Virus record (IMG/VR): IMGVR_UViG_3300007229_000124
Span: 1-20,787 of that record
Length of the DNA stretch: 20,787 bases
Source of the DNA: a virus
Direction: 5' to 3' (one strand)
How positions within the stretch are numbered: position 1 is the first letter of the stretch; every line of letters begins with the position of its first letter. Below the pieces are notes generated by a model that saw only the letters and a program-made list of their open reading frames with translations, did no database searches and was not told the origin of the DNA. Positions 605-9,232 of this stretch are shown piece by piece. The position numbers were made by a program, and so were the translations under genes.

Positions 605-841
605 ATGAGAATTACTGACGAAGAATTAAAATCAATTCGAGATCAACAAACTAAAATTGCTGAAGTTAAGCAAGACTTAGGGACTTTAGAAATTAGAAAG
701 CACGAAGTAATGAATATCTTTTTTGAGATCAACAAAGAGGTTGAGTCTACTAAAAAAGAATTAGAAAAAAATTACGGCCGTGTTAACATCAACCTTGAAG
801 ACGGTAGTTTTACTGAAATCGAGGAAAAAGTTACTGAGTAA
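605..841 (+). CDS. Small coiled-coil protein, unknown function
   Basis: This 78-residue, highly charged protein is predicted to be almost entirely alpha-helical. A likely coiled coil spans about residues 5-57 (Glu/Lys-rich with spaced Leu/Ile), followed by a short acidic tail. It contains no cysteine and no membrane segment. The stop overlaps the next start as TAATG, so the two are probably translationally coupled. It follows the holin-like gene after 27 AT-rich, non-coding bases. Small helical proteins of this kind are common between lysis and packaging genes in Bacteroidetes phages, but I cannot name a function. A chaperone, accessory packaging factor or lysis accessory are all possible. 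Confidence 0.65.
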   Translation: MRITDEELKSIRDQQTKIAEVKQDLGTLEIRKHEVMNIFFEINKEVESTKKELEKNYGRVNINLEDGSFTEIEEKVTE

Positions 842-1080
842 TGTCAAGTGTTATAAGAAAGATCAGCATAGGAGCTGACTACAAAAGCGATGCGATGCAT
901 TACGCTGTTTCACAGCAGGTGTATGGTGGTCATGAAATATCTAATATTCTCTTTGAAGAGAAAGATAACTCTTATAACATTTACATAAAAAAGAACAACG
1001 AGGTATTACCGTGGAAGAAGTTTAATTCTAACATGGCTATATCCGTTGAATACGACCTACAGTACAATGAAAGAGTCTGA
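841..1080 (+). CDS. Small conserved-looking phage protein, unknown function
   Basis: This 79-residue soluble protein looks like a small beta-rich fold. It has alternating hydrophobic strands such as NSYNIYIKKNNEVLPWKKF (about residues 45-63), then a strand MAISVEYDL near the C-terminus. It starts on the last base of the preceding stop (TAATG) and its 3' end overlaps a 29-residue membrane peptide gene by 14 bases, so it sits inside a tightly packed operon. The overall pattern (SIGADYK near the start, a central YIYIKK-like strand and W-K-x-F) is one I associate with uncharacterised marine phage proteins. I cannot assign a role. Confidence 0.6.
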   Translation: MSSVIRKISIGADYKSDAMHYAVSQQVYGGHEISNILFEEKDNSYNIYIKKNNEVLPWKKFNSNMAISVEYDLQYNERV

Positions 1081-1156
1081 TGAGCATTTTCTCGTTGGCT
1101 TTTGTTTTGGTATTCTGGTTGTATTTGTTGTAAAGTTTATTCTTGATACCATATGA
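1067..1156 (+). CDS. 29-residue single-pass membrane peptide
   Basis: The ATG at 1067 opens a 29-codon frame ending TGA at 1154-1156. The first seven residues (MKESDEH) are hydrophilic and mostly acidic. A single uninterrupted hydrophobic helix follows (FLVGFCFGILVVFVVKFIL), then a short tail. It overlaps the previous gene by 14 bases and the next gene by ATGA, the classic arrangement of translational coupling. It exactly fills what would otherwise be a 72-base hole in a gapless operon. These three points argue that it is real despite its size. The position near a holin-like gene suggests a lysis accessory (small holin, antiholin or spanin-like peptide), but that is inference. Confidence 0.55.
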   Translation: MKESDEHFLVGFCFGILVVFVVKFILDTI

Positions 1157-1749
1157 AAAGTGTACACGATTTTATTGTTAAGCCTATTGATAGTAGGTAT
1201 AACAACACAGTAAAGGTTGGTGACGTAGATCTTGTAACTAACACAAGAATAGAAGAATTTAAAAGCGTAAGTAAAGTAGCGGAGGTTGTTGCTTTACCTA
1301 TACTACTAGATACAGATATAAAAATCGGTGACAAGGTTATTGTTCACCACAATGTATTCAGAAGATTCTACGATATAAGAGGTAACGAAAAAAACAGTAG
1401 AAGTTTTATCAAAGAAGATTTGTATGCTTGTTCTGCAGATCAGATATATATGTATGGAGACAATAGAGGACATCTAGACTATTGTTTTGTAAAACCTTTA
1501 GTAAACTATGACATCTTTGTTTTAACTAAAGAGAGACCATTATTAGGAGTTTTAAAATACGGCAACAAACAACTAGATTCACTTGGTGTAAATAAAGAAG
1601 ATTTAGTTTCTTTTAGACCAACGTCTGAATTTGAGTTTATTATAGATGGAGAATTATTATATTGTATGAAATTAAATAACATTGTAGCCAAGCATGAACG
1701 TAAAGGAAACGAAGAAGAATATAATCCTAGCTGGGCAAAAAGCAGTTGA
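1153..1749 (+). CDS. GroES-like co-chaperonin with two tandem barrels
   Basis: This 198-residue protein resembles GroES (Cpn10) twice. Barrel 1, about residues 4-102, has HDFIVKPI like the GroES start, then a polar loop with VGDVDLVTN in the place of the GroEL-binding mobile loop. It continues with KVAEVVALP, DIKIGDKVIVHHNVFRRF and a closing strand ending SADQIYMY. Barrel 2, about 108-183, repeats the order: CFVKPL, LLGVLKYGN, GVNKEDLVSFRPTSEFEF and IDGELLYCMKLNNIVAKHE, which matches the GroES C-terminal strand. Its mobile loop is much shorter. Phage co-chaperonins such as T4 gp31 help GroEL fold the coat protein, and the head-gene context fits that. The start overlaps the upstream peptide gene as ATGA. 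The last 18 codons overlap the next gene. The fold call comes from pattern reading, not a search. Confidence 0.65.
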   Translation: MKSVHDFIVKPIDSRYNNTVKVGDVDLVTNTRIEEFKSVSKVAEVVALPILLDTDIKIGDKVIVHHNVFRRFYDIRGNEKNSRSFIKEDLYACSADQIYMYGDNRGHLDYCFVKPLVNYDIFVLTKERPLLGVLKYGNKQLDSLGVNKEDLVSFRPTSEFEFIIDGELLYCMKLNNIVAKHERKGNEEEYNPSWAKSS

Positions 1750-1978
1750 GGAATTAATAAAAGTTGCTAAAGAAGCTATCGTTGATAGCGGAGAAGATAT
1801 TACTGCTGACAGACTAAAAAATGCAGCGGCAACTAAGAAGCTAGCAATATTTGATGCTTTTGAGATATTAAATAGAATACAGGAGGAAGAGTCGATGCTA
1901 GACGATAGTAAAAAGCAAGAGAGCAAGAAGCAAAGTAATTTTAAAGGCTTTGCTGAAGGTAGAGCTAAAATAGGTTAG
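1694..1978 (+). CDS. Small helical protein; candidate small terminase subunit
   Basis: This 94-residue protein is predicted to be mostly helical (about residues 12-70), with a Lys/Gln-rich, probably disordered tail. It lies directly upstream of the large terminase, separated by one base, where phages usually keep the small terminase subunit that recognises DNA and regulates TerL. No helix-turn-helix can be named with certainty, although the segment ITADRLKNAAATKKLAIFDAFEIL could hold a DNA-binding or oligomerisation helix pair. The only in-frame ATG that retains the helical core is 1694, and it forces a 56-base out-of-frame overlap with the co-chaperonin gene. The next in-frame Met is residue 67. 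The stop is TAG, the only TAG stop in the window. The role is inferred from position. Confidence 0.55.
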   Translation: MNVKETKKNIILAGQKAVEELIKVAKEAIVDSGEDITADRLKNAAATKKLAIFDAFEILNRIQEEESMLDDSKKQESKKQSNFKGFAEGRAKIG

Positions 1979-1979
1979 T

Positions 1980-4193
1980 ATGTACGAACAGAGTTTATAT
2001 AAAGTACTACATAACCATATAAAGCCATCTACGCTTAAAAAGCGTAATAGGTATAAATCCTGGAAGTATGGATACGATGAAGAACACGATATAATTGTCA
2101 TAAGTAAAACTGGTGAAATAGGTGAAGTATACGAAATACAAAACCTTAAAATAGCTTTACCAGCTGAGTTTCAAACTCACAACTTTAAAGACAAAAAATG
2201 GGGTAAAACTGATTATCCAAAAGAATTAAGTAGAATTAAAACTATATTTGATTGGAAGGAATATCCCGACGAGTTCAAGGAAGAATGGTATGATTATATT
2301 GAAAAAGAGTTTGAAAGACGCGAGAATGGGTTTTGGTTTACTAACAACGGTAATCCTACTTATATTACTGGTTCTCACTACATGTATTTGCAATGGTCAA
2401 AAATTGACGTTGGCGAGCCAGACTTTAGAGAATCAAATAGACTTTTCTACATATTCTGGGAAGCCTGTAAGGCAGATACAAGATGCTTTGGAATGTGCTA
2501 CCTCAAGAATAGACGGAGTGGCTTTTCATTCATGTCATCTGGAGAAATTGTCAACCTTGCTACAATGTCAACTGACTCAAGGTATGGTATACTATCCAAG
2601 TCAGGACCTGATGCAAAGAAAATGTTTACCGACAAAGTCGTACCAATATCAGTTAACTACCCGTTCTTCTTCAAACCCATACAAGACGGTATGGACAGAC
2701 CAAAGACAGAACTTGCATATAGGGTACCAGCCTCAAAGCTTACAAGAAGGAAGCTTGATACTAACGACAGACCGGAAGATCTCGATGGGTTGGATACTAC
2801 GATTGATTGGAAGAATACAGGTGACAACTCCTATGATGGAGAGAAACTTAAGTTACTAGCTCACGATGAGTCTGGTAAATGGGAGAGACCAAATAACATA
2901 CTTAACAACTGGAGAGTAACTAAAACCTGCCTTAGACTTGGTAGTAGAATAGTTGGTAAATGTATGATGGGTTCAACTTCAAACGCTTTAGATAAAGGCG
3001 GTGACAACTTTAAAAAATTATACAATGCCTCAGATGTTACAGCAAGAAACAATAACGGACAGACTGCTTCTGGATTATACTCTTTGTTCATACCTATGGA
3101 ATGGAATTACGAAGGATACATTGATGCTTATGGATTACCTGTATTCGATACGCCAGAGAGACCAGTTAAAGATCCGTATGGAACAATTATTACACAAGGA
3201 GTCATTGACTACTGGAACAACGAAGTTGAAGGATTAAAGCAAGACCAAGATGGTTTAAATGAATTCTACAGGCAGTTTCCAAGAACAGAGCAGCATGCAT
3301 TTAGAGACGAAGCTAAAGAGTCTTTATTTAACTTAGCTAAAATATACCAACAAATAGATTACAATGAATCTATGGCATCTAGTAGTTTAGTTACTAAAGG
3401 TAATTTTCAGTGGGAGAATGGTATAAAAGATACAAGAGTAATGTTTATGCCAAATAAAAGTGGTAGATTTAACATAACTTGGATTCCACCTAAAAGCCTA
3501 CAAAACAGGGTTATAGACAAAGGTGACTCTAAATATCCTGGTAATGAACACTTAGGCGCTTTTGGTTGTGACAGCTATGATATATCTGGTACAGTAGATA
3601 GAAGAGGTTCTAACGGAGCATTACACGGGCTAACTAAGTTTAATATGGATGATGCACCATCTAATCACTTTTTTTTAGAATATATATCTAGACCTCAGAC
3701 TGCTGAGATATTCTTTGAGGATATACTAATGGCCTGTATATTTTATGGCATGCCTATACTTGCAGAGAATAACAAGCCTAGACTTCTATATCACTTCAAG
3801 AGAAGAGGTTATAGAGGTTTTTCAATGAATAGACCTGATAAGAATTACAATAAGCTATCAGTAACAGAGAGAGAGATAGGTGGAATACCTAACTCAAGTG
3901 AGGATATAAAGCAAGCTCATGCTGCTGCTATTGAGACTTATATAGAGGAACTAGTAGGAATACTAGGTGATGATGAAGTAGGGGATGTATACTTTCAAAG
4001 AACGCTAGAAGATTGGTCTAGGTTTAATATAAATAACAGAACAACACACGATGCATCTATAAGCTCTGGTCTAGCCATAATGGCTTGCAACAGAAATAGA
4101 TACGCACCAATGAATAGGATAGTAAGAAAAAATATAAATCTAGGACTGAAGATGTATGACAATACAGGACAGATTTCAAAAATAAAAAATTAA
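1980..4193 (+). CDS. terL: Terminase large subunit (packaging ATPase-nuclease)
   Basis: This 737-residue protein is the motor that pumps DNA through the portal and cuts it to length. In the N-terminal ATPase, the P-loop is a deviant KNRRSGFSFMSSG at residues 176-188, Walker B is LLAHDE at 292-297, and a coupling-type GSTSN sits at 331-335. The C-terminal RNase H-like nuclease shows GCDSYDISG at 529-537 (Asp531/Asp534), a second acidic site near ILAENNKP (Glu596) and a third at HDASISSG (Asp691). Length and motif layout match terminases of crAss-like and allied phages. It starts one base after the upstream TAG stop, and its own stop abuts the portal ATG. Codon use shifts between about 2439 and 2860, in the ATPase core. 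Confidence 0.93.
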   Translation: MYEQSLYKVLHNHIKPSTLKKRNRYKSWKYGYDEEHDIIVISKTGEIGEVYEIQNLKIALPAEFQTHNFKDKKWGKTDYPKELSRIKTIFDWKEYPDEFKEEWYDYIEKEFERRENGFWFTNNGNPTYITGSHYMYLQWSKIDVGEPDFRESNRLFYIFWEACKADTRCFGMCYLKNRRSGFSFMSSGEIVNLATMSTDSRYGILSKSGPDAKKMFTDKVVPISVNYPFFFKPIQDGMDRPKTELAYRVPASKLTRRKLDTNDRPEDLDGLDTTIDWKNTGDNSYDGEKLKLLAHDESGKWERPNNILNNWRVTKTCLRLGSRIVGKCMMGSTSNALDKGGDNFKKLYNASDVTARNNNGQTASGLYSLFIPMEWNYEGYIDAYGLPVFDTPERPVKDPYGTIITQGVIDYWNNEVEGLKQDQDGLNEFYRQFPRTEQHAFRDEAKESLFNLAKIYQQIDYNESMASSSLVTKGNFQWENGIKDTRVMFMPNKSGRFNITWIPPKSLQNRVIDKGDSKYPGNEHLGAFGCDSYDISGTVDRRGSNGALHGLTKFNMDDAPSNHFFLEYISRPQTAEIFFEDILMACIFYGMPILAENNKPRLLYHFKRRGYRGFSMNRPDKNYNKLSVTEREIGGIPNSSEDIKQAHAAAIETYIEELVGILGDDEVGDVYFQRTLEDWSRFNINNRTTHDASISSGLAIMACNRNRYAPMNRIVRKNINLGLKMYDNTGQISKIKN

Positions 4194-6599
4194 ATGAACG
4201 TAGGCGCAAATCCAAATAGTGTATTTCCTAGCCAAGTAGTTAGTGATGAAGAAAAATCAAGCTTTGAGTACGGTGTTCAAGTTGGACGTGCTGTAGAGTC
4301 AGAGTGGTTTAGACAAGGTGGAGCAGGTAATAGGTTCTCGCTAAACTATAATTATTTTCATACATTAAGACTATATGCTAGAGGTGAACAGCCTGTGCAG
4401 AAGTACAAAGATGAATTAGCTATTAATGGTGATTTATCTTACTTGAACTTAGACTGGAAGCCAGTACCTGTTATATCTAAATTTGTTGATATAGTATCTA
4501 ATGGTATGACAGAAAAGTCTTTTGATATAAAGGCTTACGCTCAAGATCCAGAGTCTATACAGAAAAGAACTAAGTATGCTGAGTCAGTGCTTCAAGATAT
4601 GCTTGCTAAGGAGGATTTAATTAAACTTAACGAGCAGATTGGTCTTGATGGATTCTCAACAGATGATCCAGATAGTTTACCTCAAAATAAAGAAGAGTTA
4701 GCTTTGCACATGCAAATGGATTATAAGCAGGCTATAGAAATAGCTAACGAAGAAGTTATAAGCCAAGTACTAGCTAAGAACAAATATGATGAGATAAGAA
4801 AAAGATTTAACTATGATCTAACTGTATTAGGTATAGGTTCCGTTAAAACAACTTGGAACAAAGCTAATGGCGTAGTTGTTGAATACTGCGATCCATCTAA
4901 CATGGTTTATTCTTATACTGATGATCCTAACTTTGAAGACATATACTACGTAGGTGAAGTTAAGTCTATATCTATACCAGAGCTAAAAAAGCAATTTCCA
5001 AATATTCCAGAAGAAGAGTTAAAGAGAATAGAGAAGATGCCTGGAAACAGACAGTATATAACTGGTTGGAATGCTTATGACGAAAACACTGTTCAGATTT
5101 TATACTTTGAATATAAGACTTACAACAACCAAGTATTTAAAATTAAGCAAGGGCCAAATGGCCTAGAAAAAGCCATACAAAAAACAGATTCATTTGATCC
5201 ACCTGAGAATGATACATTCAAAAAGGTTTCAAGAAGTATAGAGGTTTTATACAGTGGCGCTAAAATACTTGGCACAAATACTATGCTTAAGTGGGAGTTA
5301 GCAGAGAACATGACTAGACCTTTCGCTGATACAACAAAGGTGGAAATGAACTATGTGATCTGTGCACCAAGAATGTACAGAGGCAAAATAGATTCTATAG
5401 TAAGTAAGATTACTGGGTTTGCTGATATGATTCAACTAACGCATTTAAAATTACAACAAGTAATGTCTAGGATGGTTCCAGATGGAGTGTTCCTAGATGT
5501 AGATGGTTTAGCTGAGGTTGACTTAGGCAACGGGACAAACTATAACCCTGCTGAAGCATTAAACATGTACTTCCAAACTGGTAGTATATTAGGTAGGTCA
5601 TTAACGCAAGATGGTGAACTAAATAGAGGTAAGGTACCAGTACAAGAATTACAGTCATCAAGTGGAGGTGCTAAGATACAATCTTTAATACAGACATATC
5701 AGTATTACTTACAAATGATAAGGGATGTGACTGGGCTTAACGAAGCAAGAGATGGTTCTACACCAGATAAAGATGCTTTGGTTGGACTTCAAAAATTAGC
5801 GGCTAACCAATCCAACGTAGCTACTAGGCATATATTACAGGCTAGTAGTTACATAACACTTAGAGCATGTGAGAACATATCTAAGCGCGTTGCTGATTCA
5901 CTAGAGTTTTCTTTAACAGCTAACTCATTAGAGAACAGTATATCAAGATATAACGTTGGTACTCTACAAGAGATAAGAAACTTAAACCTACATGACTTTG
6001 GTATATTCTTAGAATTAGAACCAGAGGAGCAGGTTAAAGCTCAGTTAGAACAAAACATACAAGTTGCTTTACAAGCTGGTGGTATTGACTTAGAAGATGC
6101 AATAGACATAAGGCAAGTAAATAATATGCAGCTTGCTAACGAGATGCTAAAGCAGAGAAGAAAAAGAAAGCAACAAGCAGCTCAACAAACTCAACAAGCT
6201 AATATCCAAATGCAAGCACAGGCTAATGCAGAAGCATCAGAGAGATCAGCTTTAGCAGAGGTACAGAAACAACAAGCGTTAACAGCTGAAAAAGTAAGCA
6301 TTGAACAAGCTAAGTCTCAGTTTGAAATACAAAGAATGCGTACTGAAGCTCAGATAAAGAGAGACTTAATGGAAGAGGAGTTTAACTTTAACATGCAGCT
6401 TGCACAGGTAAGAGCAAACGCTGAGACATCTAAAGAAAAGGAGATGGAAGACAGAAAAGATAAGAGAGTAAAGATACAAGGGACTCAACAGTCTGAATTA
6501 ATAGATCAAAGACAAAACAATTTATTACCAAAGAACTTTGAGTCTGCAGGTAATGATACTTTAGGTGGATTTGGTTTAGATCAGTTTGGCCCAAGATAA
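4194..6599 (+). CDS. Portal protein
   Basis: This 801-residue protein should form the dodecameric ring at one capsid vertex through which DNA enters and leaves. The length is close to crAss-like portals and the gene follows terL with no gap. The body (about 20-640) contains typical portal features: an N-terminal helical clip/wing region, the core GITKFADMIQ-type helices (here SKITGFADMIQLTHLKLQQ, 404-422), and a crown-proximal segment with MIRDVTGLNEARDGSTPDKDALVG at about 508-531, a pattern common in podovirus portals. Residues about 650-770 form a long Gln/Ala/Glu-rich helical tail, likely the barrel or a coiled coil entering the head. The last 30 residues are Gly/Asn-rich. No Shine-Dalgarno sequence is visible, so translation probably couples to terL. 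Confidence 0.9.
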   Translation: MNVGANPNSVFPSQVVSDEEKSSFEYGVQVGRAVESEWFRQGGAGNRFSLNYNYFHTLRLYARGEQPVQKYKDELAINGDLSYLNLDWKPVPVISKFVDIVSNGMTEKSFDIKAYAQDPESIQKRTKYAESVLQDMLAKEDLIKLNEQIGLDGFSTDDPDSLPQNKEELALHMQMDYKQAIEIANEEVISQVLAKNKYDEIRKRFNYDLTVLGIGSVKTTWNKANGVVVEYCDPSNMVYSYTDDPNFEDIYYVGEVKSISIPELKKQFPNIPEEELKRIEKMPGNRQYITGWNAYDENTVQILYFEYKTYNNQVFKIKQGPNGLEKAIQKTDSFDPPENDTFKKVSRSIEVLYSGAKILGTNTMLKWELAENMTRPFADTTKVEMNYVICAPRMYRGKIDSIVSKITGFADMIQLTHLKLQQVMSRMVPDGVFLDVDGLAEVDLGNGTNYNPAEALNMYFQTGSILGRSLTQDGELNRGKVPVQELQSSSGGAKIQSLIQTYQYYLQMIRDVTGLNEARDGSTPDKDALVGLQKLAANQSNVATRHILQASSYITLRACENISKRVADSLEFSLTANSLENSISRYNVGTLQEIRNLNLHDFGIFLELEPEEQVKAQLEQNIQVALQAGGIDLEDAIDIRQVNNMQLANEMLKQRRKRKQQAAQQTQQANIQMQAQANAEASERSALAEVQKQQALTAEKVSIEQAKSQFEIQRMRTEAQIKRDLMEEEFNFNMQLAQVRANAETSKEKEMEDRKDKRVKIQGTQQSELIDQRQNNLLPKNFESAGNDTLGGFGLDQFGPR

Positions 6600-6626
6600 T
6601 TTTTTTAATTTATATTATATTATATT
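6600..6626 (+). promoter_or_regulatory. AT-only leader before the scaffold-like gene
   Basis: The gap between portal and the scaffold-like gene contains no G or C. It has seven T (6600-6606), AATT, then three tandem TATAT units (6611-6625) directly before ATG 6627. It carries no Shine-Dalgarno sequence. A similar TTTATATTATG context precedes the gene at 9312. It may act as an unstructured, A/T-rich ribosome-landing leader of the kind used in Bacteroidetes. I see no hairpin that would make the T-run a terminator. Confidence 0.35.
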
Positions 6627-7769
6627 ATGTCAGAAGAAGTAAAACAAGAGGGGGATTTTAAAATTAAAAAGAAACCTTCTATGAAAAAACTGGTTAAAAA
6701 ACCAGAGGTAACTAAGGTAGATTTATCTGCTAAAAAAGAAGCAGAGCCCGATGTTATTAAAGTTGAAATAAAATCAGAAGATGAAGTTCAAGAGCAAGTT
6801 GAAGATGTGGTTGAAGAGGTAGTGTCAAATGATAATATCGAGGATACGACTACAGACGATGACGTACAAGTGCTTCAAGAAATAACAGACGAAGAAGAAG
6901 AGGTGGTAGCTGATACTGTTGAAGAGTCAGTGGAAACTAAAAAGCTTTTACCTGAAAACATAGAGAAACTTGTTTCTTTTATGGATGATACAGGTGGTAA
7001 CATCGAAGACTATGTTAGATTAAATGCTAACTACGATGACATCGATAGTAAGACTTTGTTAAAAGAATATTACAGAAAAAATAAACCTCATTTAGACGAG
7101 GAAGAAATAGCCTTTATACTGGAAGATAAATTCGAATATGACGAAGATATTGACGAGGAAAGAGAAATACGTAAGAAAAAGCTTGCGTTTAAAGAAGAAG
7201 TTGCAGAAGCCAAAGGCTTTTTGAAAGACTTGAAGAGTAAATACTACGACGAGATTAAGTTAAGACCGGGCGTAACTCAAGAGCAGAAAAAAGCTGTAGA
7301 CTTCTTTAACCGATATAATGAAGAGAAGCAGATAGCTAATGACAAGTTACAAAGGTTTCAAAAAGGTACATCTGAATTACTTAACGATGATTTCAAAGGT
7401 TTTGATTTTAATGTCGGAGAGAAAAAATTTAGGTATAACATTAGCAACCCTAGTAAAACAGCCAAAGAACAATCTAGTATATCAAACTTTGTTGGGAAGT
7501 TCCTAGACAAAAAAGGTGAGGTATCAGATCAGAAAGGTTACCATAAAGCTTTGTATGCCGCTTCAAATGTAGACAAGATTGCAAACCATTTTTACGAACA
7601 AGGTAAGGCTGACGCTATAAAGGATGTTGTCAGTAGTTCTAAGAACATATCTGATAAGCCTAGACAAGCAGCAAGCGACAGTGTTTTTATTAATGGCCTA
7701 AGAGTTAAGTCTATAAATGGAGTAGATTCTTCAAAACTTAAAATTAAAAAATCACAATTTAACAATTAA
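6627..7769 (+). CDS. Putative scaffolding protein, highly acidic
   Basis: This 380-residue protein lies between the portal and coat genes, the usual place for a head scaffold. Residues 10-30 are basic (FKIKKKPSMKKLVKK). Residues 40-105 are extremely acidic and probably disordered (runs such as TDEEEEVVADTVEE). About 105-250 is charged and helical, with likely coiled coil at 175-250. The C-terminus is again basic (KLKIKKSQFNN, 370-380). Scaffolds are typically charged, helical proteins that touch the coat through a basic end, and that fits here. No protease motif is evident. Lys-Ile-Lys-Lys occurs at both termini, which could be paired binding sites. Family identity is inferred from composition and position rather than a recognised domain. 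An alternative is another internal head protein. Confidence 0.6.
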   Translation: MSEEVKQEGDFKIKKKPSMKKLVKKPEVTKVDLSAKKEAEPDVIKVEIKSEDEVQEQVEDVVEEVVSNDNIEDTTTDDDVQVLQEITDEEEEVVADTVEESVETKKLLPENIEKLVSFMDDTGGNIEDYVRLNANYDDIDSKTLLKEYYRKNKPHLDEEEIAFILEDKFEYDEDIDEEREIRKKKLAFKEEVAEAKGFLKDLKSKYYDEIKLRPGVTQEQKKAVDFFNRYNEEKQIANDKLQRFQKGTSELLNDDFKGFDFNVGEKKFRYNISNPSKTAKEQSSISNFVGKFLDKKGEVSDQKGYHKALYAASNVDKIANHFYEQGKADAIKDVVSSSKNISDKPRQAASDSVFINGLRVKSINGVDSSKLKIKKSQFNN

Positions 7770-7780
7770 AAACTAAAAAA

Positions 7781-9232
7781 ATGGGACAATTTATTCCTAA
7801 TGCTGCTGATCCACTTGGTCAGTTTAGCATTACACCTATGCCAAAAAAAATGGCATTAGAATCAAATTATTTAAGCTTTACTGACGGAACAAATGACTTT
7901 GCTCAACAGTATTTGCCAGAAATTTATGAGGCTGAAGTAGAGCGATACGGAAACAGAACTTTATCTGGATTCTTACGTATGGTTGGAGCTGAAATGCCAA
8001 TGACTTCTGATCAAGTTGTTTGGTCAGAACAAGAAAGACTACACATTGGATATGAAAGTTCTACAGCTGGTACAGTAACTGTTTCAGGTGCAGCAACAGC
8101 TGGTGGGTCAACTATTACCTTTGCTGGTACAGCATTAAACAATGGAACTCATGCAATACGCATAGGTAATACCGTAGTTGTCACTGATCCTGCTACAGAC
8201 ATTACACTTAAGTGTTATGTATTGGGTATTACTGATACAACTATTACTGTTAAGTCATACACTACAGCTACTTTAACTACTATCGGAAACGTTGTTGTTA
8301 ACTTATTTGTTTATGGCTCTGAGTTTGGTAAAGGAACGCTTGGTATGGTAGGTTCGCTTGACGCTCAATTTAAGCAATTTGATAACAAACCTATTATAAT
8401 CAAAGACAACTATGAGATCAATGGATCTGATACTGCTCAAATTGGTTGGGTTGAAGTTGCTACTGAAGATGGAACAAATGGATACTTATGGTATCTAAAG
8501 TCTGAAGGCGAAACTAGACTACGTTTTCAAGATTACTTAGAAATGGCAGTCGTTGAAGGAGAGAAAAAAGCTGCTACATCTACTGTATCAGTCGATGGTA
8601 CTCAAGGTCTATTCTCTGCTATTGAAGAGCGAGGCAATGTATACCAAAACTACGCAAGTGGTGCAGGTGTTGGCGGAGCTGGAACTAGAAGCGCATTAAG
8701 TGATTTCGATCTTATTCTTCAAAATCTTGATAAGCAAGGAGCTATTGAAGAGAACATGTTGTTCTTGAACAGATCTACTGCTTTGGATTTTGATGATATG
8801 TTAGCTGCTCAGAACTCTTATGGTGCTGGCGGTACTTCTTACGGAGTATTTGAAAACTCTGAAGAAATGGCATTGAACTTAGGTTTTGCTGGTTTCCGTA
8901 GAGGTTCTTATGATTTCTACAAAACTGACTGGAAATATCTAAATGATGCTACTACCAGAGGTTTAGTTGATAACATTAAAGGAGTATTAGTTCCTGCTGG
9001 AACAAGTACTGTTTATGATCAAATGTTAGGTACTAACATCCGTCGTCCATTCTTACACGTACGTTACAGAGCTTCTGAAGCTGATGATCGTAGAATGAAG
9101 TCTTGGATTACTGGATCTGTTGGAGGTGCTCAAACTTCTAGCTTAGATGCTATGACTGTTAACTTTTTATCTGAAAGATGTTTAGTTACTCAGGCTGCTA
9201 ACAATTTTGTATTGTTCACTGGAGCTGCATAA
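7781..9232 (+). CDS. Major capsid protein, HK97 fold
   Basis: This 483-residue protein should form the icosahedral shell. The N-terminal arm (1-40) leads to YLPEIYEAEVERYGNR (44-59) and LSGFLRMVGAEMP (61-73), followed by SDQVVWSEQERLHIGY (76-91). I recognise this signature from crAss-like and allied podovirus coat proteins. Residues about 95-180 are a Thr/Val/Gly-rich beta segment that fits an insertion in the E-loop. The P and A domains follow, with DADDRRM-type C-terminal strands around 425-450. Codon use differs from the neighbours: about half of the 20 Arg codons are CGN, with AGA making up the rest, and T/C-ending codons are frequent, as expected for the most abundant product. A strong terminator follows 16 bases after the stop. 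The start lies behind an A-rich leader, AAAACTAAAAAA. Confidence 0.92.
   Translation: MGQFIPNAADPLGQFSITPMPKKMALESNYLSFTDGTNDFAQQYLPEIYEAEVERYGNRTLSGFLRMVGAEMPMTSDQVVWSEQERLHIGYESSTAGTVTVSGAATAGGSTITFAGTALNNGTHAIRIGNTVVVTDPATDITLKCYVLGITDTTITVKSYTTATLTTIGNVVVNLFVYGSEFGKGTLGMVGSLDAQFKQFDNKPIIIKDNYEINGSDTAQIGWVEVATEDGTNGYLWYLKSEGETRLRFQDYLEMAVVEGEKKAATSTVSVDGTQGLFSAIEERGNVYQNYASGAGVGGAGTRSALSDFDLILQNLDKQGAIEENMLFLNRSTALDFDDMLAAQNSYGAGGTSYGVFENSEEMALNLGFAGFRRGSYDFYKTDWKYLNDATTRGLVDNIKGVLVPAGTSTVYDQMLGTNIRRPFLHVRYRASEADDRRMKSWITGSVGGAQTSSLDAMTVNFLSERCLVTQAANNFVLFTGAA

Follow-up and report, generated by a model that had tools for sequence, protein, structure and literature searches.

A phage co-chaperonin predicted to carry two GroES barrels in tandem, encoded upstream of the terminase in marine Bacteroidetes phages

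We found that a 198-aa protein encoded in a 20.8-kb virus record (IMGVR_UViG_3300007229_000124, analysed over all of its 20,787 nucleotides and referred to here as the window) is probably a phage co-chaperonin of the plastid Cpn20 type, with two barrels predicted to lie head to tail, and that it would most likely form part of the GroEL lid for phage head proteins. Tandem co-chaperonins are known from plastids and apicoplasts, and how an even-numbered lid can sit on the seven-fold GroEL has long been puzzling there. Abundant phages that encode a double GroES, a single GroES and GroEL provide a small, tractable and apparently independent case, in which direct tests can be made of a ring of three doubles and one single, of how many docking loops are needed and of how the chamber is tuned to a capsid protein. 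The finding also allows an incomplete 'GroES' annotation to be corrected in many hundreds of viral genomes.

A conserved gene upstream of the terminase

The open reading frame that the initial annotation had read as a co-chaperonin was placed exactly, including its strand, ATG start and length (Table 1), and TerL, the portal and a structural protein all lie downstream of it in the window. phrog_13932 ('co-chaperonin GroES') matches the protein across both halves (E=1.7e-22), with E=2.3e-17 for half 1 alone and 1.3e-3 for half 2 alone. Isolated relatives with approximately 31-42% identity occur in Flavobacterium elemo phages, in Cellulophaga phages phi38:1 and Calle (Pervagoviridae) and in Maribacter phage Panino, and a further one at this level of identity is found in the metagenomic MW202828. 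Single scans of IMG/VR each return 540-590 relatives, and the carriers of the tandem protein are a large group of marine Bacteroidetes phages.

All 269 loci examined contain one copy with both halves kept, which answers the initial question of whether homologues retain them, and TerL is downstream of the tandem gene in each of the 267 loci with enough flank. Purifying selection acts on both halves, and more strongly on half 1 (dN/dS approximately 0.02-0.10) than on half 2 (0.05-0.25). Because these 269 relatives have two halves, dN/dS is low and profile scores lie far above those of shuffled controls, the open reading frame is a genuine, strongly conserved gene rather than a product of chance. 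When cellular genomes were scanned for the tandem protein, the scan returned phage modules inside MAG contigs and nothing else. A 1.05-Mb Aenigmatarchaeota MAG 'chromosome' (CP070801.1) holds a Bacteroidetes-phage module with tandem GroES, TerL and portal; this is probably a chimeric assembly, like other archaeal and proteobacterial MAG contigs.

Table 1. Features of the tandem co-chaperonin gene and its neighbors, in window coordinates
Feature	Coordinates	Strand	Evidence
Tandem double-GroES (Cpn20-like, predicted) co-chaperonin gene	1153..1749	+	ORF with ATG start, 198 aa; phrog_13932; AlphaFold2
Predicted barrel 1 (first Cpn10 barrel), residues ~1-103	1153..1461	+	model of the half alone; sequence link via phi46:3 and elemo half 1
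Putative mobile-loop equivalent of barrel 1, residues 12-40	1186..1272	+	alignment of 200 sequences; predicted hairpin E19-22/E25-28
HHN motif, residues 65-67	1345..1353	+	alignment (200 unique sequences); GroES equivalence inferred from alignment
Predicted barrel 2 (second Cpn10 barrel), residues ~107-181, mobile loop cut to ~13 aa	1471..1695	+	hhalign, Pfam Cpn10
S-E-[YF]-E-F motif, residues 158-162	1624..1638	+	alignment; equivalence to HHN site inferred from fold order
C-terminal tail ERKGNEEEYNPSWAKSS, residues 182-198, clade-specific	1696..1746	+	alignment; start of next ORF overlaps
Conserved 94-aa ORF between co-chaperonin and TerL	1694..1978	+	ORF list; 238 loci
Large terminase (TerL), conserved downstream neighbor	1980..4193	+	phrog_6681 E=2e-165
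Portal protein	4194..6599	+	phrog_6547 E=1.5e-144
Virion structural protein, 483 aa (probable major capsid protein)	7781..9232	+	phrog_13704 E=1.3e-96
Conserved 79-aa ORF upstream of tandem gene	841..1080	+	ORF list; 248 loci

The 483-aa structural protein is probably the major capsid protein and, as such, a candidate folding client. The 94-aa ORF begins inside the tandem gene (overlap 1694-1749) and covers the clade-specific tail ERKGNEEEYNPSWAKSS, so conservation of this tail may partly reflect the overlapping frame. The elemo, Calle and Panino phages do not have the 94-aa ORF, but the N-terminus of their TerL is approximately 140 aa longer. Its position suggests that the ORF is fused to TerL in these phages; a profile comparison of the ORF with the N-terminal extension of the longer TerL proteins was not significant.

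Structure prediction points to two GroES-like barrels

The AlphaFold2 model of the whole protein, built with a 55-member alignment, has a pLDDT of 88.7 and a pTM of 0.80. The protein had been proposed to follow the GroES strand order twice, and the predicted strands do run through this order in a first round (E7-11, E42-47, E61-64, E90-93 and E98-101) and again in a second (E110-117, E127-136, E151-154, E160-164, E167-173 and E177-181). The segments quoted in support of that proposal are present and pair as claimed, with FIVKP and CFVKP as strand 1, KVAEVVALP and LLGVLKYGN as strand 2, DIKIGDKVIVHHN and GVNKEDLVSFRPT as strand 3 with the turn after it, and DLYACSADQIYMY and ELLYCMKLNNIVAKHE as the last strands.

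Foldseek against the PDB placed 7ekq_R ('Cpn20 co-chaperonin subunit') first, with a full-length match to the whole model over 205 columns (TM 0.57/0.58, prob 1.00, E=2.8e-4). This chain is the tandem Cpn20 of Chlamydomonas and contains two GroES stretches, which bears out the analogy with plastid Cpn20 drawn at the outset. The following ranks, through 36, are occupied by GroES/Cpn10 chains, gp31 or other 7EKQ chains and by nothing else; 7EKQ also names a 'Chaperonin 23' (7ekq_Q) and a 'Chaperonin 11' (7ekq_P). The Foldseek E-values are modest and the rmsd is high (approximately 4-7 Å), as expected of divergent barrels, and these values alone are not decisive. Residues 1-103 modelled separately reached a pLDDT of 90.3, and PDB ranks 1-31 for this half were all GroES/Cpn10 or 7EKQ co-chaperonin chains. 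In a viral structure library, the 'Chaperonin cpn10' of phi18:3 (200 aa) matches the tandem model with a TM of 0.76. A viral protein of 304 aa, half again as long (BFVD A0A516L046), matches the tandem model at TMq 0.71 and may contain three barrels or be extended in some other way.

Our data indicate a GroES-like beta-barrel fold, supported for the whole model and half 1 by predicted structure and for half 2 by profile. Residues 108-183, where the lack of a GroES barrel would have spoken against the initial annotation, are predicted to form one. Fold prediction and profile evidence together thus argue for two fused GroES/Cpn10 beta-barrels, that is, a single chain in which one Cpn10 domain follows another, as in Cpn20.

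Sequence profiles link half 2 directly and half 1 through relatives

By hhalign, half 2 and phage single GroES match at 91.4% (E=9e-7). Pfam Cpn10 (PF00166) aligns to residues 140-180 only of the 198-aa protein, with 14.2 bits vs a gathering cut-off of 21.1 (E=0.047); this cut-off, missed by the window protein, is exceeded by half 2 of relatives (33.3, 28.0 and 26.4 bits), among them phi46:3, L189 and Calle. In the window clade, half 1 was not detected directly as Cpn10 by Pfam, NCBIfam, PDB sequence profiles or hhalign: Pfam Cpn10 gave no match to half 1 in 55 members, and hhalign of half 1 against GroES gave 3%, no better than shuffles. PDB sequence matches to ybgI and to UDP-GlcNAc acyltransferase were rejected as chance.

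The sequence link between half 1 and GroES is transitive, via phi46:3 and the elemo phages. Between the family and the tandem protein of phi46:3, the match is 97.5% (E=7.6e-12, 178 columns); half 1 of phi46:3 matches single GroES at 92.9% (E=3.7e-7), with its canonical loop KTESGLEL included, and half 2 does so at 94.4%. Half 1 of the elemo protein matches phrog_3188, a single-GroES PHROG, with E=3e-4. The matches of half 2 and the phi46:3 links score between 37 and 78, vs maxima of 17-23 in shuffled controls.

We consider it highly improbable that one half only is a GroES barrel and the other an unrelated domain. The missing direct sequence match of half 1 in the window clade would fit this, but ranks 1-31 for half 1 alone are GroES/Cpn10 chains, tandem Cpn20 aligns with the whole model along 205 columns and half 1 of phi46:3 matches GroES by sequence. 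Similarity between half 1 and half 2 is undetectable (4.7%, no better than shuffles) and therefore gives no choice between internal duplication and fusion of two different GroES.

Loops, roof and conserved motifs

A long mobile-loop-like stretch had been ascribed to half 1 only. This holds for the window, where the half 2 loop is approximately 13 aa, and for approximately 98% of relatives, where it is 13-17 aa; it does not hold for Pervagoviridae and L189/L190, in which the half 2 loop is 23-24 aa (with GSIIV in L189/L190). The second long loop was either lost by the window clade or gained by Pervagoviridae and L189/L190. The half 1 loop, located between residues 11 and 42, is 27-31 aa across the family (200 sequences) and has a hydrophobic triplet position at 27-29, LVT in the window and [LF][IV][VTLI] in the family, with residues 27-28 hydrophobic in nearly all 200 sequences. 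Canonical half 1 loops are found in phi46:3 (KTESGLEL) and in the elemo phages (SNGLILN). By its length and its triplet, the half 1 loop is a candidate for the mobile loop that binds GroEL; half 2 has no such loop in the window.

The roof segment is 13 aa in half 1 and 15 aa in half 2 vs 21 in GroES by the same measure, and approximately 12 aa in phage single GroES. In T4 gp31, the roof loops are missing and the mobile loop is longer, features thought to enlarge its chamber (PMC6318259). The enlarged chamber suggested in the initial annotation has indirect sequence support in the shortened roof segments and the longer half 1 loop.

HHN and Gly77 are each invariant in 200 of 200 unique sequences. 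HHN aligns with GroES residues 68-70, directly before the cavity-facing Tyr71, which lines the chamber ceiling and contacts clients (PMC10723157). By fold order, the SE[YF]EF motif of barrel 2, whose E159 is kept in 199/200 unique sequences, occupies the position equivalent to that of HHN in barrel 1. Both motifs may therefore face the client, and candidate roles for HHN are ceiling lining and metal or client contact. Since HHN is absent from GroES and from phi46:3, part of the tandem protein may do something else. The shortened roof, together with HHN and SE[YF]EF at ceiling positions, suggests a wider chamber with a client-tuned lining, similar to that of gp31.

An alternative reading is that a GroES-fold protein has turned into a virion or packaging component (for example a terminase accessory, a connector or a decoration) and has given up its action on GroEL. 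The fixed place by TerL and portal, which is seen in 267/267 loci and lies apart from the GroEL/GroES pair, would agree with this, as would the presence of only one long mobile loop, an invariant HHN not seen in GroES and a separate GroES that already serves GroEL. However, we regard a virion or packaging role as unlikely, given that the half 1 loop is kept at 27-31 aa with residues 27-28 almost always hydrophobic, that it is canonical in phi46:3 and the elemo phages, that Pervagoviridae keep a second long loop, and that the phi38:1 record marks the portal and the next gene, not the tandem product, as structural.

Companion chaperonin genes and the composition of the ring

GroEL is encoded in the records of 33 of 40 relatives. 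Among the 25 searched records of at least 50 kb, all contain a canonical single GroES above the Pfam cut-off and 23 contain GroEL. The single GroES mostly adjoins GroEL, kilobases from the tandem gene: in one record of the window's clade (G003), GroEL spans 5014-6462 and GroES 6474-6728, whilst the tandem gene begins at approximately 12255. By this layout, the GroEL/GroES region of the window phage would be located just left of the window. Co-occurrence with single Cpn10 and Cpn60 is thus seen in relatives, while the window ends before that region. The GroEL of the phages belongs to the group I chaperonins, is full-length and retains DGTTTAT. phi46:3 (KC821622, complete genome) and the 72.8-kb L189 record (G027) have the tandem and the single GroES with no detectable GroEL, so either host GroEL would be needed or the lid works otherwise. 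The double GroES, single GroES and, usually, GroEL would correspond to the plastid set of Cpn10, Cpn20 and Cpn60.

We propose that the tandem protein most likely becomes part of a lid on the GroEL ring. This lid would shut phage head proteins into the folding chamber, and the client is probably the capsid protein, whose gene lies a few genes further downstream. Judging from loop lengths, barrel 1 would dock via its lengthened mobile loop and barrel 2 would mainly complete the ring; since barrel 2 has no long loop in the window protein, not all seven GroEL subunits would be contacted.

The initial annotation had pointed to a symmetry problem, with three or four double subunits around a seven-fold GroEL. 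The single GroES of the relatives would offer, besides a homo-trimer or homo-tetramer, a ring of three doubles and one single. Because the same genomes encode a single-barrel GroES, and usually GroEL, this would be the simplest match to the seven-fold GroEL, with seven domains; we prefer it as a model, though only tentatively. The Chlamydomonas ring in PDB 7EKQ contains one Cpn11, one Cpn23 and two Cpn20, which amounts to seven domains. Work on plastid co-chaperonins found seven-domain hetero-oligomers to be functional, and six- or eight-domain concatamers also work (PMC5780408).

About equal in likelihood to the ring of three doubles and one single, and just as tentative, is an even-numbered ring formed by the tandem co-chaperonin itself, a trimer with six barrels or a tetramer with eight, which would cap GroEL asymmetrically and independently of the single GroES. 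The architecture would be the same and the ring composition different. Plastid Cpn20 forms tetramers and is able to work alone, the tandem and single GroES genes are not adjacent, and the single GroES may simply be a second, separate lid. However, the presence of a single GroES in all 25 records of at least 50 kb, even where GroEL is missing (G027 and phi46:3), fits a shared ring. Extended to its full form, the ring of three doubles and one single would give a complete, private chaperonin with an asymmetric, hetero-heptameric lid, approximately four docking loops and a client-tuned ceiling for head assembly, with plants and phages having arrived independently at 3 x 2 + 1; we consider this larger picture rather doubtful. 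As a normal GroES is already present in the same genomes, a second lid is not strictly needed.

Relation to known co-chaperonins

The members of phrog_13932 and the RefSeq entries 'co-chaperonin GroES' (phi46:3, phi18:3, phi38:1, Calle, elemo and Panino) belong to the same family, with similar length and the same place before TerL. These records are annotated only as cpn10/GroES and do not state two barrels. The window clade differs from these named phages in its shorter half 2 loop and its C-terminal tail. Prior studies described GroEL in phi38:1-type marine phages (Nishimura 2017, PMC5332604), 'chaperonin cpn10' among the Pervagoviridae core genes (Bartlau 2021, PMC8776804) and both GroEL and GroES in Panino (PMC11590407). 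A literature search for a tandem or double phage GroES found none; a mention is possible in Marine et al. (ISME J 2017, viral chaperonins), which was outside the search. The family already carries a name; its double-barrel architecture and the set of three parts appear to be undescribed in viruses.

Plastid and apicoplast Cpn20 (Chlamydomonas Cpn20/Cpn23, Arabidopsis Cpn20/21) likewise join one GroES domain to a second in the same orientation and are co-encoded with a single Cpn10 and a Cpn60. Identity to the phage protein is approximately 16%, and Chlamydomonas Cpn20 is its best full-length structural match. Mobile loops in both domains would be expected of the Cpn20 type, whereas most phage members are without a long half 2 loop; the phage protein also has no transit peptide. 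We assume that the relation between the two is probably convergent; the sequences have diverged too far to yield a trustworthy tree.

T4 gp31 and other single-barrel phage co-chaperonins have the Cpn10 fold, a long mobile loop and missing roof loops in common with the tandem protein (PMC6318259), and a role in morphogenesis like that of gp31 is assumed by analogy. gp31 has one barrel and forms homoheptamers on host GroEL, whereas here there would be two barrels, a separate phage GroES and usually a phage GroEL. Bacterial GroES shares its fold and strand order with each half, but it is a single domain with a full roof hairpin and no HHN. The phage single GroES proteins, for example gp074 of phi46:3 (L330:28560-28814), are without the roof hairpin and mostly keep a canonical mobile loop of the SGL[LI]L type.
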